Source: Thiobacillus thioparus DSM 505
Lineage (GTDB): Bacteria; Pseudomonadota; Gammaproteobacteria; Burkholderiales; Thiobacillaceae
Assembly: GCF_000373385.1 (NCBI RefSeq)
Contig: NZ_KB891317.1
Location: forward strand, 62,001 to 126,000
Direction of reading: 5' to 3'
Length of the DNA: 64,000 nucleotides
The notes below the pieces were generated by a model. That model made no database searches. It had not been told where the DNA came from and saw only the letters and a program-made list of their open reading frames with translations. Made by a program: the position numbers and the translations under genes. Shown here piece after piece: positions 18,215-25,772 of this stretch. Numbering within the stretch: position 1 is the first letter of the stretch; every line of letters begins with the position of its first letter.

Positions 18215-19471
18215 ATGGCTGAAGCCAACGACGCCGCGCTCGAACCCATCCTCACCAAACTCGCCGCGGCGCGCACGCGGCTCATCATGGAGCGCCCGTT
18301 TCTCGGCGCGCTGGTGATGCATCTACCGCTGAAAGTCGGCGGCGAGGGATGCACGACTACCGGCACCGACGCGCAGGCCTTCTATTTCAATCCGAAATTC
18401 ATCGACAACCTCAATCTCGCGCAGACGCAGTTCGTGCTGGCGCACGAGGCGATGCACTGTGCGATGGGCCATACCCACCGCCGCAACCATCGCGTCAAGC
18501 GGCGCTGGGACGTGGCCTGCGACCACGCGGTCAATCTCATCCTGATCGAGGAAGGCCTGAAGCCGCCGCTGCATGGCATCCTCGCCGACCAGAACTACAT
18601 GACGCTGTCGGCGGAGGAAATCTATCCGCTGATCCCCGAGGACACGCCGGAAGAGTCCTTCGACCAGCACATGTTCGACAACGACAACGACTCCGGCGCC
18701 AGCCCCGACGAGAACCAGCGCCAGGACAACCCGGACGCCGGCGAATCGGGGGGGCAGGGCAAGGAAGGCCAGAGCCAGGCTGAGGAAAAAGAGGGCAGCG
18801 GCAGCCAGGCCTCACAGAAGCCCAATGAGTTGTCGCCCAGCGAACGCGAGGAACTCGCCGAGCAGTGGAAGAATCGCCTGGCCGCCGCCGCCCAGGCCGC
18901 TCGCCAGGCAGGCAAGCTGTCGCAGTCGATGATGCGCTGGGTCGACGATCTGCTCGCTCCCAGCCTGCCATGGCGCGCGCTGCTGGCGCGTTTCTTCGCG
19001 GTCAACCAGCGCGACGACTATTCGTGGCGCCGGCCGTCCCGGCGCGAGGGCGACGCGCTGCTGCCACGCCTGTCGAGCGAAGGCATCGACGTGGTGGCGG
19101 CGATCGACACCAGCGGCTCGATCAGCGACGAGGAATTGCGCGAGTTCGTCACCGAGCTCGACGCTCTGAAAGGCCAGGTGCGCGCGCGCGTCACCCTGCT
19201 GGCATGCGACAACCATGTGGCGGAACAGGCGCCGTGGGAATTCGAGCCTTGGGACGCCATGCAACTGCCGACCGACCTCGAAGGGGGGGGCGGTACCGAC
19301 TTCCGTCCGGTGTTCGCCTGGGTCGAACACGAGAATCGCAGCCCCAACATGCTGGTATATTTCACCGATGCCGAAGGCGATTTCCCCAAAGTTCCGCCGA
19401 ATTACCCGGTGATCTGGCTGGTCAAGGGCAAGGGCGTGGTGCCCTGGGGCGAACGGGTGCAGCTGAATTGA
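18215..19471 (+). CDS. VWA-like protein with N-terminal putative metallopeptidase domain (DUF2201 type)
   Basis: A 418-residue two-domain protein. The N-terminal half has a zinc-peptidase-like HEAMH motif (AHEAMHCAMGH, about 76-86). A low-complexity Asp/Glu/Gln/Ser linker spans about 150-210. The C-terminal VWA domain carries the MIDAS motif DTSGS (about 298-302) and FTDAEGDF. It is the partner of the upstream MoxR ATPase; such pairs are inferred to remodel or activate a client using the MIDAS metal site. Whether the HExxH site is catalytic is unknown. The stop overlaps the TTG start of hslO. Confidence 0.9.
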   Translation: MAEANDAALEPILTKLAAARTRLIMERPFLGALVMHLPLKVGGEGCTTTGTDAQAFYFNPKFIDNLNLAQTQFVLAHEAMHCAMGHTHRRNHRVKRRWDVACDHAVNLILIEEGLKPPLHGILADQNYMTLSAEEIYPLIPEDTPEESFDQHMFDNDNDSGASPDENQRQDNPDAGESGGQGKEGQSQAEEKEGSGSQASQKPNELSPSEREELAEQWKNRLAAAAQAARQAGKLSQSMMRWVDDLLAPSLPWRALLARFFAVNQRDDYSWRRPSRREGDALLPRLSSEGIDVVAAIDTSGSISDEELREFVTELDALKGQVRARVTLLACDNHVAEQAPWEFEPWDAMQLPTDLEGGGGTDFRPVFAWVEHENRSPNMLVYFTDAEGDFPKVPPNYPVIWLVKGKGVVPWGERVQLN

Positions 19472-20310
19472 GCGCGCCGCCCGACCGCGTCCGCAGCTTC
19501 CTCTTCGAGCAACTCGACATCCGGGGCGCGTGGGTGCAACTGGGCGGCGCCTGGCGCGAGATGACGGCGGGCCGCAATTACCCTGAGCCGGTCCTCGAAC
19601 TGCTCGGCCAGCTGGCGGCGGTGACCACGCTGATCACTGCCAACCTCAAGCAAGCGGGGCGACTGACCTTCCAGCTGCGCGGCGACGGCGACGTATCGCT
19701 GCTGGTGATTGACTGCGACGAGCAGTTACGCCTGCGCGGCATGGCGCATGCACCGTCGGAGCTCTCTTCAGGCAGCCTGCCGGCCCTGCTGGGCGACGGT
19801 TCGCTGACGCTGATACTCGACACGGCCGACATGCGCCAGCCCTACCAGAGCCATGTACCGCTGCAGGGCGAGACGCTCGCCGCCGTATTCGAGCATTACC
19901 TCGCGCAGTCCGAGCAGGCGCCGACCCGGTTGTGGCTGGCGGCCAATCACGAGGTGGCGGCGGGCCTGTTTTTGCAGGCGTTGCCGGGCGCGGCCGCGCG
20001 CGATGCCGATGGCTGGAATCGGGTGCAGATCCTGGCCGGCACGGTGCGTGCCGACGAATTGCTCGACCTCGGCGCGATCAAGCTGATCGAACGCCTGTTT
20101 CCGGAAGAGGATGTGCGCGTGTACGACCCGCGCCCGGTCAGTTATCACTGCCCGTATGATCCGGACAAGATCTATTCCATGTTGCGCAGCGTCGGGCGTG
20201 CAGAATGCGAAGCCATTCTTGCCGAGCAGGGTGAAATACGGGTGCACGACGACATCTGCAACCACGAGTACGTGCTGGATGCGGCCGCGGTGACGGCCTT
20301 GTTTGAATGA
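19468..20310 (+). CDS. hslO: Hsp33-family redox chaperone HslO, atypical zinc site
   Basis: A 280-residue Hsp33: FLFEQLDIRGAWVQLGGAW, GRLTFQLRGDGDVSLLVIDC, LQGETLAAVFEHYLAQSEQ, then the C-terminal redox domain. Canonical Hsp33 has CxC and CxxC zinc ligands. Here the first pair reads HCPYDPDK (Tyr where the second Cys should be) and the second reads VHDDICNHEY (Asp where the first Cys should be), so two of four switch cysteines are missing while the ML+GR(E/A)E helix and CN(H/R) remain. The start is a TTG overlapping the VWA stop (TTGA), the only start that keeps the family N-terminus. Holdase function may persist without the canonical redox switch. Confidence 0.88.
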   Translation: MSAPPDRVRSFLFEQLDIRGAWVQLGGAWREMTAGRNYPEPVLELLGQLAAVTTLITANLKQAGRLTFQLRGDGDVSLLVIDCDEQLRLRGMAHAPSELSSGSLPALLGDGSLTLILDTADMRQPYQSHVPLQGETLAAVFEHYLAQSEQAPTRLWLAANHEVAAGLFLQALPGAAARDADGWNRVQILAGTVRADELLDLGAIKLIERLFPEEDVRVYDPRPVSYHCPYDPDKIYSMLRSVGRAECEAILAEQGEIRVHDDICNHEYVLDAAAVTALFE

Positions 20311-20321
20311 AAGGATGAGCG

Positions 20322-20606
20322 ATGCGGACAGAATGGATACTGGCAGGGCTGCTGATTTTCGCGAACGGGGCACAGGCGGAGGACGGACGCTACCAGGCTT
20401 TGCCGCTGGCCGGGGCCGAGGGCGGCAAGGGTGGCGGGCGGGCGCTCATTCTCGATACCCGCGACGGCCATGTATGGATCTGGAGCGAGAACGAACTCAT
20501 TACTGCGCCGGATGGCCACCGCCGTTATGGCACGGGCTTCATCTATCAGGGCAAGCTGCGCCCCGGCAATCAGGCGGGCGAGTTCATCGAACAGAAGGCC
20601 AAGTGA
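20322..20606 (+). CDS. Small exported protein of unknown function
   Basis: A 94-residue protein starting 11 bases after hslO. It has a signal peptide (MRTEWILAGLLIFANGAQA, cleavage likely after AQA) and a mature part of about 75 residues with Gly-rich GAEGGKGGGRALILDTRDGH then VWIWSENELI and YGTGFIYQGKLRPG. It is probably periplasmic with a small beta-sheet. No family is recognised. It lies between the MoxR/hslO operon and the decayed pilus locus and could belong to either. Confidence 0.7.
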   Translation: MRTEWILAGLLIFANGAQAEDGRYQALPLAGAEGGKGGGRALILDTRDGHVWIWSENELITAPDGHRRYGTGFIYQGKLRPGNQAGEFIEQKAK

Positions 20607-20720
20607 ACGTGCGGCTTCGCCTGGCGCCCGGTCTTGGGCGGGGCGGCGGACGACCTATGGCTTAAGGCGAAGCCTGTCCGGGCCGATATGTGCTCATACT
20701 TGCGCACCCATCCGAGAAAA

Positions 20721-21230
20721 ATGCAGACCGAGTCAGCCCCCCAACCCGCTTCCCCCCAGGCTGGACGCCAGAAAATCCGCCTGGGCGACCTGCTCGTCGA
20801 GCAGAAGGTCATCTCCAGCGCCGACCTGGACATCGCACTGGCGGCGCAGAAGAAAAGCGGGCGCCGCCTGGGCCGCATCATCGTCGAAAGCGGGCTGGCA
20901 GGCGAAAACGACATTGCCCAGGCGCTGGCGTTTGCGTCCAGTGCGGTCTCGGAGACGGACAGCGTCGTGCAGGTGGAGGATGGCCGCATCGTCGCCATCG
21001 GCGGAATGATGAAGCAATCCTTCGACGGTAGCGCCAACCGTGTGCCCGGGCCGGGCCAGGTGCCGCTGTTGGGGTACTTCTTTGGCAATACCAACCAGAG
21101 TTCGAAGAAGAGCGAACTGGTGATCCTCATCAAGCCGACCGTCATCGATCGCCAGGAAGATTGACAGGCGGATGCGGAAGCGACCCAGGCACGCCTCGAC
21201 AAACTCGAGCGACAACCGGCGACACCATGA
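20721..21230 (+). pseudogene. Chimaeric remnant: MshE N-terminal domain fused to MshL secretin C-terminus, with premature stop
   Basis: The open frame (20721-21164, 147 residues) joins two pilus proteins. Residues 18-70 (KIRLGDLLVEQKVISSADLD to IAQALA) are the N-terminal domain of MshE/PilB-type ATPases. From about residue 71 (ASSAVSETDSVVQVEDG, RIVAIGGMM, VPGPGQVPLLGYFFG, KKSELVILIKPTVI) the protein is the C-terminal end of an MshL/PilQ secretin. After TGA at 21162-21164 the frame continues for 21 sense codons (QADAEATQARLDKLERQ and on) to a TGA at 21228 that overlaps the mshM ATG, so the first TGA is a premature stop in the ancestral mshL. No intact mshE or mshL is present here. Confidence 0.85.
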
Positions 21231-22230
21231 CGGCAGTGGCTTTCTCCAACTCCGAAAATTCGCTGGGTGCAGCCGGCGAGTTTTACGGTGGCGGAAAGCC
21301 GATGCCTTCGACCAACGGCCGCCATTCCCTCTCCTATCTTGCCCATTTCGGACTTGCCGAAGCGCCTTTTGGACTGACCCCGATACCGATTTCTTTTTTG
21401 CCTCGCCACCGCATCAGGAAGCGCTGGACACGCTCCTCTATGCACTGGAAAGCGGCGAGGGCTTCATCAAGATCGTCGGCGCGGTCGGGACCGGAAAAAC
21501 CCTGCTGTGCCGGACCCTGCTGGCCGAACTGCCTAGGCGCTGCCGTGCGCTCTATCTTCCCAACCCCGCGCTCGATCCGCTCGGCATCCTGTTTGCCGTC
21601 GCCGAGGAACTGGGCCTCAAGCTGACGGGAAAGGAAAGCTATTACCGCGTCCACAAGGCGATCCAGACGCGGCTGATCGCGCTGGCCAGGCGTGGCACGC
21701 GCGTGGTACTGATCCTCGACGAGGCCCAGGCGATCTCGCTGGAGAGCCTGGAAACGGTCCGGCTGCTGTCCAACCTGGAAACCGAGAAGCGAAAATTGCT
21801 GACAATCGTGCTGTTCGGCCAGCCGGAACTGGATGAGCGGCTGCAGGCCATTCCGCAACTCAAGACCCGGATCAGTTTCCATGATCGCCTGCGCCCTCTG
21901 CAGCGCGAGGAACTTGTTGCCTATCTGTCCCATCGCCTGGCGCGCGCGGGTTTCGAATCCGCCGCCTTGCCGTTCAGCCCGCGTGCCGTCGGGTTTTTGT
22001 ACGAGGCCAGCGCTGGCGTTCCGCGCGTGGTCAATGTCATTGCCCACAAGGCGCTCATGCTGGCGTATGGAAAAGGCCTGCATCGTGTCGGCGGGCGCGA
22101 GATGCGAGAGGCCGCACGCGACACCCTGGCGGCCAAGTCAATCAATCGCACTGCACGATGGGTGCTGCTCGTTCTGGCGACGCTGGGGGCGGGCGCCGCA
22201 ACCGCAGGCTGGTTGTACCTGATTGCGTAG
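21227..22230 (+). pseudogene. mshM: mshM-like (ExeA/GspA-type) AAA ATPase, frameshifted
   Basis: The ATPase is split between two frames. From ATG 21227 the first frame gives YLAHFGLAEAPFGLTP, the typical MshM/ExeA N-terminus. The second frame resumes with DTDFFFASPPHQEALDTLLY and runs to 22230, with Walker A GAVGTGKT, Walker B VVLILDEAQ, FGQPELDERL, and a C-terminal membrane segment (WVLLVLATLGAGAATAGWLYL). The switch lies at about 21380-21382, where a proline codon has lost one base. Restoring it would give a normal-length protein. A sequencing error cannot be excluded, but lesions in the preceding gene support decay. Confidence 0.85.
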
Positions 22231-22260
22231 ACCGTTCCATGCCGGATTTCGATTGAACGT

Positions 22261-23295
22261 ATGAGTATCATCAACCAGACGTTGCGTGCGCTGGACGCGC
22301 GCCAGACCGATCACGCTTCCCACCGGACACCGCCATCCCCACTCGTCGTGGCGAAGCGGCGCAGGATGCCGCTATGGGGCGCCGTCGCCCTGCTATTGCC
22401 GCTTGCCGGACTGGGGATATGGCTGGCTGCCGTACGTCCCCTGCAGCCGCATGCGGCGGGCGAGCGACGTGTCGCGATCCGGTCTGTGGCCGTGTCTGCG
22501 CCGATGTCGCCGGCGGTGTCCTTCGCGCAAACTCCAGTCAAGGCACCCACCTCTCCCGTTGTCGTTGCATATCAGGCCGGATCGGCGGATGCGGAAAAAG
22601 AAAAGAAACGGTTGGCGCCGGCCAATCCCCCCAAGCTGCCCGAACCCGCCGCGGCGATCGCGACGGTGAGCATGTCAGGTCACGCTGTGGCGCAGCAGCC
22701 GGCCATTCGCAAGGAAGTCAATCAACCCACACCCCGGGAAGCGGCCGACGAACGCTATCGCAAGGCATTGACGCTCATCCGGACAGGGCAGGCGGATCGG
22801 GCCCGGGCGCTGCTGGAAGAGGCGCTTGTATTGTCTCCTGAGCATGTTGCTGCGCGCGAAGCGCTGGCGGCGTTGTTGAGCGATGCCGGCCGCAATCAGG
22901 AGGCCGAAAAGATCTTGCGCATCGGGCGCGCAGCGAGCCCGGAACATGCGTGGTTTGCACTCAGCCTTGCCCGCCTGCAGGCGGCACGCGGGGATACGGA
23001 AGGCGCGGTTGCAAGCTTGCAGAGCGGGATGGGTGGGCGCGGTGTCGATGCCGATTACCATGCGACGCTGGCGGCGCTGCAGGTGCAGCTCAAGCAATAT
23101 CCCGATGCCGTGCGGCAATACGAGCTGGCGCTTGAGATGCAACCGGGCTCGGGAATCTGGTGGGTGGGCTTGGGACTCGCCCTGGCCGCCCAGGGAAAAA
23201 ACGACAAAGCGCATTCCGCCTACCGGCGCGCGCGCATGGCAGGCAATCTGCCGGATACGCTCGAGGAATTTGTCCGCGCCAAACTCGCCGACTAG
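22261..23295 (+). CDS. mshN: MshN-like TPR protein
   Basis: A 344-residue, apparently intact protein. The N-terminus MSIINQTLRALDARQ is the short cytoplasmic motif typical of MshN, followed by a membrane anchor (WGAVALLLPLAGLGIWLAAV, about 38-58), a Pro/Ala-rich periplasmic linker (to about 155), and a TPR array from about 160 to the end (AADERYRKALTLIRTGQADRA, ARALLEEALVLSPEHV, YPDAVRQYELALEMQPGSG). In MSHA pilus systems MshN is encoded after MshM, as here. No mshE, mshG or pilin genes follow, so it lacks its partners locally. Confidence 0.8.
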   Translation: MSIINQTLRALDARQTDHASHRTPPSPLVVAKRRRMPLWGAVALLLPLAGLGIWLAAVRPLQPHAAGERRVAIRSVAVSAPMSPAVSFAQTPVKAPTSPVVVAYQAGSADAEKEKKRLAPANPPKLPEPAAAIATVSMSGHAVAQQPAIRKEVNQPTPREAADERYRKALTLIRTGQADRARALLEEALVLSPEHVAAREALAALLSDAGRNQEAEKILRIGRAASPEHAWFALSLARLQAARGDTEGAVASLQSGMGGRGVDADYHATLAALQVQLKQYPDAVRQYELALEMQPGSGIWWVGLGLALAAQGKNDKAHSAYRRARMAGNLPDTLEEFVRAKLAD

Positions 23296-23526
23296 CAATC
23301 GGCGGGCACAGCGAATATGTTGAAATCCCATGAGTTGCGCGAACGTAACCAGGGCATGGCCCAGGAGCTGTGGTAATTACACAACGCAAATTTTTCGCAA
23401 TGGAAGAAAATTAATAGATTGTGGTTTTCTTTTGCCGATTTGTTAGAATTCCGCGCGTCGGCTGGATCTCAAGTCCCGGACCGATCTCTGGTGTGGGTTT
23501 TTATATTCGTAATAAAGGGAAATCAA

Positions 23527-23775
23527 ATGAAATATTCCGTTCTCCTGGCTGCTCTGCTGGCTGTTTCCATGACCGCTTGCGGCAAAAAAGAAGAAGCTGC
23601 TGCTCCCGCTGAAGCGCCCGCTGCTGCTGCTCCTGCTCCGGAAGCTGCTGCGCCCGCTCCCGCTCCGGAAGCTGCTGCTCCGGCCGCTCCTGCTGATGCT
23701 GCTGCTCCGGCCGCTCCTGCTGACGCTGCTGCTCCGGCCGCTCCTGCTGACGCTGCTGCTCCTGCTGCCAAGTAA
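23527..23775 (+). CDS. Small Ala/Pro-rich lipoprotein with tandem repeats
   Basis: An 82-residue precursor: signal peptide MKYSVLLAALLAVSMTAC with a lipobox (SMTAC) predicting acylation at Cys18, then GKKEEAAA and a low-complexity tail of Ala, Pro, Glu and Asp built from nine-residue units (APAAPADAA). AAAGGGA lies seven bases before ATG. It is probably an abundant small envelope lipoprotein with an extended, flexible chain. A -10-like TAGAAT at 23444-23449 and a strong terminator at 23794-23820 show a one-gene transcription unit. Confidence 0.8.
   Translation: MKYSVLLAALLAVSMTACGKKEEAAAPAEAPAAAAPAPEAAAPAPAPEAAAPAAPADAAAPAAPADAAAPAAPADAAAPAAK
23674..23754 (+). repeat. Three tandem 27-base repeats within the lipoprotein gene
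   Basis: Three near-identical 27-base units (GCTGCTCCGGCCGCTCCTGC then TGAYGCT) at 23674, 23701 and 23728 differ at a single T/C position. Each encodes nine residues, so copy number can change without shifting the frame. Confidence 0.9.
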
Positions 23776-23793
23776 TTCCAGGTTCAGGAACGT

Positions 23794-23820
23794 AAAACCG
23801 GCCTTTGGGCCGGTTTTTTT
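23794..23820 (+). terminator. Strong rho-independent terminator, possibly bidirectional
   Basis: AAAACCGGCC-TTTG-GGCCGGTTTTTTT follows the lipoprotein stop by about 18 bases. The A-run on the left gives a U-run on the minus strand, so it can also stop transcripts of the convergent aminotransferase gene, whose stop codon it touches. Confidence 0.92.
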
Positions 23821-24988
23821 ATGCCTGCAAGAAACGATCGAGCCGGGTCAGGGCTTCAGCCAGCCGGGGCAGGGGCTGGGTATACGCAAAGCGGACATGG
23901 CGCGCGGCGTGAAAATGGCCAAAATCGATCCCTGGCGTCACCGCAACGCCCGCCTGATCGAGCAACTGGCCGGCGAAGGCGTGGCTGTCCTGGGTGAAAC
24001 GGCTGCAGTCGGCATACAGGTAAAACGCGCCCTGTGGGGTCACCGGAATGGCGAAGCCTCGTTCGCGCAAGGCGGGCAGCAGAAAATCGCGGCGGGCCCG
24101 GAGTTCGGCCTTGCGGGTTTCGAGTTGATCCAGCGTCGCGGGCGAGAAGGCCGCCAGCGCGGCATGCTGGGCCGGGGTGGACGCCGCCAGGAACAGGTTC
24201 TGCGCCAGACGTTCCAGCGCCGGCATGGCCCAGGCAGGTGCGGCCAGCCAGCCGAGCCGCCAGCCGGTCATCAGGAAATACTTGGAAAAACTGTTGACGA
24301 CGAACACGTCGTCCCAGCGCGCGGCCGTGTGCTCATCGCCGTCGTAGGTCAGCGCCAGATAGATCTCGTCGACAATCAAGGCCACGCCCTGCGCGTGGCA
24401 CCAGTCGTGGATGCGTGCAAGCTCGTCGGCTGAAATGCCGGTGCCGGTAGGATTGGACGGGCTGGCAATCAATACGGCACGGGTGGCCGGGGTGGCGTTG
24501 CGCTCGATGGCTTCGAGGGTGAGCTGGAAGCCGCTGTCGGAATCGACTGGGATGCTGACGGCGCGCGCATCGCAGAACCCGGCGAAATGGCGATTGCACG
24601 GATAGCCCGGATCGGCCATCAGTACCTCGTCGCCTGGCCCGGCCAGGAGGCCCAGCGCCAGCAGCAGGGCACCGGAGGCGCCGGGGGTCACCACGATTCG
24701 CGCCGGATCGACCGTGGCCTGCCAGCGCGTGGCATAAAACCCCGCGATGGCTTCGCGCAGCGCCGTTAAACCCAGGGCGCCGGTGTAATGCGTGTGGCCG
24801 GCGCGCAGCGCGGCGATGCCGGCTTCGACGATGGGCTCGGGGGTGGCGAAGTCGGGCTCGCCGATTTCGAGGTGGATGATGTCGCGCCCGGCGGCTTCGA
24901 GTGCCTGGGCCTGCGCCAGGATGGCCATGACGTGGAAGGGCGCGATGCCATCCATGCGTGCCGCGATATTGGGCTTAGTCGTGCTCAT
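23819..24988 (-). CDS. PLP-dependent class I/II aminotransferase
   Basis: A 389-residue fold-type I aminotransferase: LEIGEPDFATPEPIVEAG, HTHYTGALGLTALREAI, VVTPGASGALLLAL, ASPSNPTGTGIS, VDEIYLALTYDGD, and the PLP lysine in NSFSKYFLMTGWRLGW, ending with HVRFAYTQPLPRLAEAL. The family includes aspartate, aromatic and alanine aminotransferases; the amino donor cannot be deduced. ATG 24988 is used because the family starts close to it. It overlaps the upstream mtfA gene by 14 bases, so the two are co-transcribed. Confidence 0.92.
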   Translation of the reverse strand: MSTTKPNIAARMDGIAPFHVMAILAQAQALEAAGRDIIHLEIGEPDFATPEPIVEAGIAALRAGHTHYTGALGLTALREAIAGFYATRWQATVDPARIVVTPGASGALLLALGLLAGPGDEVLMADPGYPCNRHFAGFCDARAVSIPVDSDSGFQLTLEAIERNATPATRAVLIASPSNPTGTGISADELARIHDWCHAQGVALIVDEIYLALTYDGDEHTAARWDDVFVVNSFSKYFLMTGWRLGWLAAPAWAMPALERLAQNLFLAASTPAQHAALAAFSPATLDQLETRKAELRARRDFLLPALRERGFAIPVTPQGAFYLYADCSRFTQDSHAFAGQLLDQAGVAVTPGIDFGHFHAARHVRFAYTQPLPRLAEALTRLDRFLQA

Positions 24989-25772
24989 GGAATTCCAGTC
25001 GTTGCCCGGAGGGCATGGCTGCCAGTGGATGCTGGCGAAAGAACTGCTGCAGCTGTTGGTAAACTGCCGGATATTCCGCATCGAGCAGGTGCGGCGTCTC
25101 GAAGAATACTTCAGTTAGTACCGCAAAGAACTCGGCAGGATCGGCCGTGGCGTAGGGGTCGATGGCCGTGTCCTCGCCTGAATCGACGCGTCTGCACAGA
25201 TCCTCGTAGGCCGTACTGAAATCCTGTGCCCAGGCAGCGGCATCCATGCCGCGATGCAGCGGCGGGAACCCGTTGGCGTTGCCGTTCAGCATGTCCAGCT
25301 TGTGCGCGAATTCGTGCAGAACGACATTGAAACCGTCGGCCTGGCCGCTGGCTTCGACGTCGGCGCGCGACAGCACCAGAGGGCCGCCCAGCCAGGATTC
25401 GCCGGACAGGATATCGCGCGAGTGGTGCACCACCCCGGCCTCGTCCATTTCCTCACGAGAACGCAGAAATTCATCGGGATAGAGAATGATCTCGCTCCAG
25501 CTGCGGTAGCTGTCCTCGCCGAGGTTGAGCGTCAACAAGCAGGCCTGCAACGCGATGGCAAGCCGGATGGAATCATCGATCCCTGAGTCGCCCGCTGCGG
25601 AAAAGGTCTTGTCGTGGATGAACAAGCTGGCGGACTCCCGCAGGCGTGTCCGCTCCGAGGCATCCAGTCGGTGCAGGATCGGCAGATTGGCGAGCGCGGC
25701 CTCGAAGGCATCGACCGGGATGGCGTGCCGCGCGAGGATGCGGGCCCGGCGCCAGCGGCCAAACCAGCTCAT
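24975..25772 (-). CDS. mtfA: MtfA-type zinc peptidase (M90 family)
   Basis: A 265-residue protein with the M90 signature VVLHEFAHKLDMLNG (zinc HExxH) and the downstream glutamate region ADPAEFFAVLTEVFFETP. The N-terminus MSWFGRWRRARILARHAIP and YRSWSEIILYPDEF also match. In E. coli MtfA binds the repressor Mlc and has aminopeptidase activity; here the partner is unknown. The length is normal. It lies between rmuC and the aminotransferase gene in one minus-strand run. Confidence 0.92.
   Translation of the reverse strand: MSWFGRWRRARILARHAIPVDAFEAALANLPILHRLDASERTRLRESASLFIHDKTFSAAGDSGIDDSIRLAIALQACLLTLNLGEDSYRSWSEIILYPDEFLRSREEMDEAGVVHHSRDILSGESWLGGPLVLSRADVEASGQADGFNVVLHEFAHKLDMLNGNANGFPPLHRGMDAAAWAQDFSTAYEDLCRRVDSGEDTAIDPYATADPAEFFAVLTEVFFETPHLLDAEYPAVYQQLQQFFRQHPLAAMPSGQRLEFHEHD

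Follow-up and report, generated by a model that had tools for sequence, protein, structure and literature searches.

An MshE–MshL chimaeric frame in Thiobacillus thioparus as the very probable scar of one internal deletion in an MSHA-type pilus cluster

In the MacSyFinder MSH model, as described in PMC6668835, an MSHA pilus has a mandatory set of five genes, mshA, mshE, mshG, mshL and mshM. The order of these genes differs between lineages. In the Shewanella operon that we read (L075) it is mshI-J-L-M-N-E-G-pilins, whereas in Thiobacillus the homologous genes run mshE-mshG-pilins-mshQ-mshI-mshJ-mshK-mshL-mshM-mshN. HMM searches of genome G016 and tblastn searches of G060, G005 and G013 confirmed the latter order. 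According to the account in PMC5013675, the MshEN_N subdomain of the MshE ATPase (residues 1-62 in V. cholerae) binds c-di-GMP on its own with a KD of 0.35 µM, through two 24-residue motifs of the form RLG...LxxxLxxQ, each with a terminal conserved Gln. Laboratory evolution experiments have yielded mshL, mshE and mshG mutations both in Vibrio alginolyticus resistant to phage (PMC9532999) and in Shewanella oneidensis passaged through the gut (PMC7439477), so selection against the MSHA pilus is known, at least as these two papers describe it. Our literature search found no paper title on an MSHA scar like the one described below.

The G016 cluster starts with mshE (an ATPase with MshEN), followed by mshG (a GspF-like platform protein). 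In its pilin region the prepilin N_methyl domain is matched by four genes, though one scores slightly below the Pfam cut-off, and a 144-aa gene comes next. An 1181-aa DUF6701/Laminin_G_3 protein was taken as MshQ, mshI, mshJ and mshK were assigned by size and position, and MshL scores 266 bits against TIGR02519 (cut-off 250.2). Matches to mshE and/or mshL at E <= 1e-12 were found in 37 of 55 congeners, with the two genes on the same contig in 22, on different contigs in 12, and only one of them present in 3. In all 22 congeners with both on one contig, the two genes share a strand and mshE precedes mshL by 9.3-13.9 kb. Among the matches listed for 24 genomes of other families, mshE comes before mshL in five (G037, G043, G046, G058 and G059), and in G055 an mshE-like match lies far from the mshL-like match. 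In G060 (L118:13293-13529) and G013 (L037), the beginning of the G016 mshL frame is matched in a different frame from the remainder; the TTG taken as the start of G016 MshL probably lies too far upstream.

The window, a stretch of 64,000 nucleotides from T. thioparus DSM 505, has flanking genes identical in kind to those of the G016 cluster, and its mshE start and mshL-M-N end are collinear with that cluster. It lacks the rest of mshE, mshG, the pilins, mshQ, mshI, mshJ, mshK and most of mshL, and its mshM is frameshifted. The two ends meet in a single frame on the forward strand (20721..21164), which opens with ATG at 20721, closes with a stop at 21162-21164, and encodes 147 aa with no internal stops. 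Residues 1-70 are the MshE N-terminus (codons 1-70 of mshE, 20721..20930), and the final 77 residues are the MshL secretin C-terminus (the last 77 codons of mshL plus its stop, 20931..21164, by NCBIfam, Pfam and alignment).

The first-pass annotation had placed an MshE N-terminal domain at residues 18-70 or so and a secretin C-terminal end from about residue 71, and profile searches agree with it on both. Residues 20-71 score 68.2 bits (cut-off 38) against NCBIfam NF053729, an MshE-related c-di-GMP motif, over positions 1-52 of 53. Residues 67-142 match positions 215-290 of 290 in the MshL model TIGR02519 (E 4e-19, 68.7 bits), and residues 74-143 match positions 100-169 of 169 in Pfam Secretin PF00263 (68.3 bits, cut-off 27.5). 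The TIGR02519 score is under the 250.2 bits set for a whole MshL protein because only the MshL tail is present. The T2SSE ATPase domain PF00437, present in G016 MshE, had no match in the chimaera in a Pfam scan, which places the product outside the MshE/GspE/PilB ATPases, just as its TIGR02519 score places it outside the MshL secretins. Residues 1-70 share 99% identity with full-length MshE of G005 and G016, and residues 68-147 share 91% and 93%, respectively, with the full-length MshL proteins of those genomes. In both, the two source genes lie 13 kb apart on one strand, with mshE upstream.

Both flanks of the joint are collinear with G005, G016, G013 and G060, all of which keep the full cluster. 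By arithmetic, the single alignment gap is 12,944 bases in G005, 12,961 in G016, 12,873 in G013 and 12,790 in G060. Base-level alignment with these relatives is valid on the left side to 20930 and on the right side from 20931 or slightly earlier, just where the junction had been proposed, and it leaves over no inserted sequence. Window positions 18,398-20,930 are 96.2% identical to G005 and positions 20,923-25,370 are 87.1% identical. As for short homology at the breakpoint, an imperfect 8-base repeat is present at 20923..20930 on the forward strand: the overlap CGCTGGCG agrees at 7/8 bases when the mshE side of G005 is compared with its mshL side, but its last two bases alone are strictly ambiguous, which is no more than chance. 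We therefore give little weight to microhomology. In G005, 1.9 kb of mshE and 2.1 kb of sequence around mshL have 249 exact 8-mer pairs in common, and because 8-base overlaps are so common between these GC-rich genes, the deletion appears to have involved little or no homology.

The deleted DNA is absent from the assembly. When the deleted 12,935-base piece was searched against the genome of the window (G000), only short matches were returned, mostly to the ATPase part (the best 68% over about 535 bases). There was no match to mshG at E <= 1e-90. Other matches to either half of the chimaera occur at four places only, two on contig C13 and one each on C14 and C16, at 31-37% identity.

Downstream of the chimaera, mshM (an AAA ATPase, 21227..22230, forward strand) is indeed frameshifted, as the first-pass annotation stated: DNA alignment with four relatives shows one base missing from the window near 21,370-21,400. 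Beyond that point mshM is 83-92% identical to three congeners, and when the intact protein is searched against the genome, the match starts only at residue 42, which agrees with the frameshift. It is followed by mshN (22261..23295, forward strand), an open reading frame encoding a 344-aa TPR protein by Pfam. The left flank is a gene for a 94-aa protein without a Pfam or NCBIfam match (20322..20606, forward strand), which adjoins mshE in the cluster-bearing relatives fetched. The right flank, as in the relatives, is a class I/II aminotransferase gene (PF00155, 23819..25081, reverse strand). Between mshN and the aminotransferase gene, window positions 23527-23775 encode a small Ala/Pro-rich protein with repeated APAAPADA-like units. 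Set against the mandatory genes of the MSH model, the locus has mshE and mshL as fragments, mshG unmatched at E <= 1e-90, the pilin region deleted and mshM frameshifted, and it does not qualify as an MSHA locus. A pilus cannot be built from it because most of mshE and mshL and all platform and pilin genes are gone.

The chimaera is almost certainly a scar, left when a single internal deletion removed 12.8-13.0 kb from the Thiobacillus MSHA-type pilus cluster. Alignment, HMMs and the relatives with a full cluster all uphold the earlier view of an MshE–MshL fusion left by pilus loss, and the scar is ordinary gene loss, neither a new gene nor a rearrangement. The breaks would lie at codon 70 of mshE and 77 codons short of the mshL terminus, in genes reading in the same direction; a random joint of this kind keeps the frame in one case out of three. 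It may have been closed by end joining or by replication slippage, with little or no homology involved. In addition, mshM is frameshifted and mshN is left over, and the product of the chimaera is presumably non-functional. The locus captures one way in which a large pilus cluster can be lost, through one long internal deletion that spared both ends.

The deletion scar appears in 1 of 56 Thiobacillus genomes, and only in the window's genome are both cluster ends shown joined. In 18 of the 55 congeners, including the single-contig genome G024, neither mshE nor mshL has a match at E <= 1e-12, and mshM has none in these 18 at E <= 1e-70. One of the 18, G035, has an mshG 53% identical on another contig. 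At the five empty sites that we read among the 18 (L119-L123), the 94-aa gene adjoins the aminotransferase gene at a distance of 455-582 bases, with no msh matches between them; in other Thiobacillus species the pilus cluster occupies this fixed site. Drafts G027 and G079 have matches to mshE (on a separate contig), mshL and mshM and none to mshG at E <= 1e-90, and draft G071 matches mshL and mshM only.

It is possible, though very unlikely, that the chimaera is instead a functional new gene kept by selection, in which a free c-di-GMP-binding MshE N-terminal subdomain carries a secretin tail and serves, for example, as a c-di-GMP sink. The frame is open with the native mshE start and covers nearly all of NF053729, and the isolated V. 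cholerae MshEN_N binds c-di-GMP (PMC5013675, as cited above). Like MshEN_N proteins, the chimaera has motif I (residues 20-43, with the terminal Gln at 43) and, after a spacer of 5 residues, the opening 22 of the 24 residues of motif II, which starts at residue 49. Unlike them, it has no ATPase after the motifs, and the mshE part ends two codons short of the end of motif II. The joint comes after residue 70, so the motif has its two final residues replaced, and residue 72 is Ala where G016 MshE has the Gln that is conserved in the description of PMC5013675. From the sequence, c-di-GMP binding might be weakened. In addition, the secretin part lacks the MshL N-terminal portion and most of the secretin domain, the neighbouring mshM is frameshifted, and the gene occurs in a single Thiobacillus genome. 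Retained function is unlikely on these grounds, and we give only a slight chance to a module freed by accident under the mshE promoter and expressed as a small binding protein that outlives the pilus.

Substitutions were also considered in this connection. With G016 as the outgroup, the private changes of the chimaera relative to G005 are 1 nonsynonymous and 2 synonymous in the N-terminal part and 4 and 8 in the C-terminal part. Summed over each gene, nonsynonymous/synonymous changes private to the window lineage (those of G005 in brackets) number 5/10 (1/9) for the chimaera, 12/22 (3/7) for mshM and 26/36 (17/16) for mshN. The test used partial genes: the VWA-domain protein from residue 62, mshM residues 77-351 and aminotransferase residues 27-420. 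The mostly synonymous changes in the chimaera would, alone, fit a constrained protein, and many of them may predate the deletion. The private-change counts have no clear excess of amino-acid changes of the kind expected under relaxed selection, which means either that the deletion happened recently or that the test has little power.

Since the junction is known here from the assembly alone, a misassembly that fused two portions of a cluster still intact in the cell was weighed as well, and we consider it highly improbable. The deleted 12.9 kb is absent from an assembly of 18 contigs rated 100% complete; the contig that carries the junction is 332 kb long. The two sides share so few bases at the joint that they should not confuse an assembler.

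The first-pass annotation had taken L-M-N-E as the order of intact loci, so that the fusion seemed reversed and to require a duplication or rearrangement followed by deletion. That order, a Vibrio-type one, is real in Shewanella (L075). It is not the order in Thiobacillus, where mshE precedes mshL in 22/22 congeners and the full order, with E first and L-M-N last, was read in four genomes, and no second copy was found in the assembly. We regard this course of events as extremely improbable: a single deletion in the congeneric order is enough. As msh order differs between lineages, an apparently reversed fusion need not imply rearrangement. A conserved family of small two-domain proteins can be set aside as having a negligible chance, given that a match spanning both halves was found in 0/55 congeners (E <= 1e-12) and in no other family among the matches listed (E to about 1e-7), that 41 loci in a further search match only one part of the query, ending by about residue 72 or starting at residue 54 or later, and that the one weak match over residues 24-144 (G004:C60, a 784-aa frame, 28% identity, E 8e-8) is probably a stretched match to another secretin.

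The deletion scar is not accompanied by a second intact MSHA locus, which had been raised as a possibility and of which none was found in the assembly. What contig C13 has is a paralogue (L125:4484-16564, reverse strand), the same kind of machine with the order M-L-N-E-G, consisting of an AAA ATPase with a SPOR domain, a secretin, a TPR protein, an MshEN ATPase, a platform protein and a prepilin. The secretin passes the MshL model with 255.4 bits (cut-off 250.2), and identity to the MSHA counterparts is about 28-42% for the M, L, E and G proteins of this locus. A sigma-54 response regulator gene lies upstream of the locus. The secretin is 80-99% identical in 7 of the 8 congeners searched, which comprise MSHA-bearing genomes and three with an empty site; G005 has no match at E <= 1e-100. 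We rejected this locus as the source of the chimaera, as it is an old paralogue whose secretin is conserved alongside the MSHA cluster. Its presence may be one reason why the MSHA cluster could be lost.

Divergence from G005 is uneven across the right flank, beyond what deletion alone explains. The aminotransferase gene (23819-25081) has a dS of 0.71 from G005, compared with 0.16 for the left flank and 0.15 for mshM, and G005 and G016 differ there by 0.25. A recombined segment is one possibility for this excess. On contig C14 (L126:4037-11166, reverse strand), a 754-aa GspE/PilB-like ATPase frame accompanies a 653-aa TPR-plus-secretin protein, which is under the NCBIfam cut-offs for PilQ, GspD and MshL and passes Pfam Secretin.
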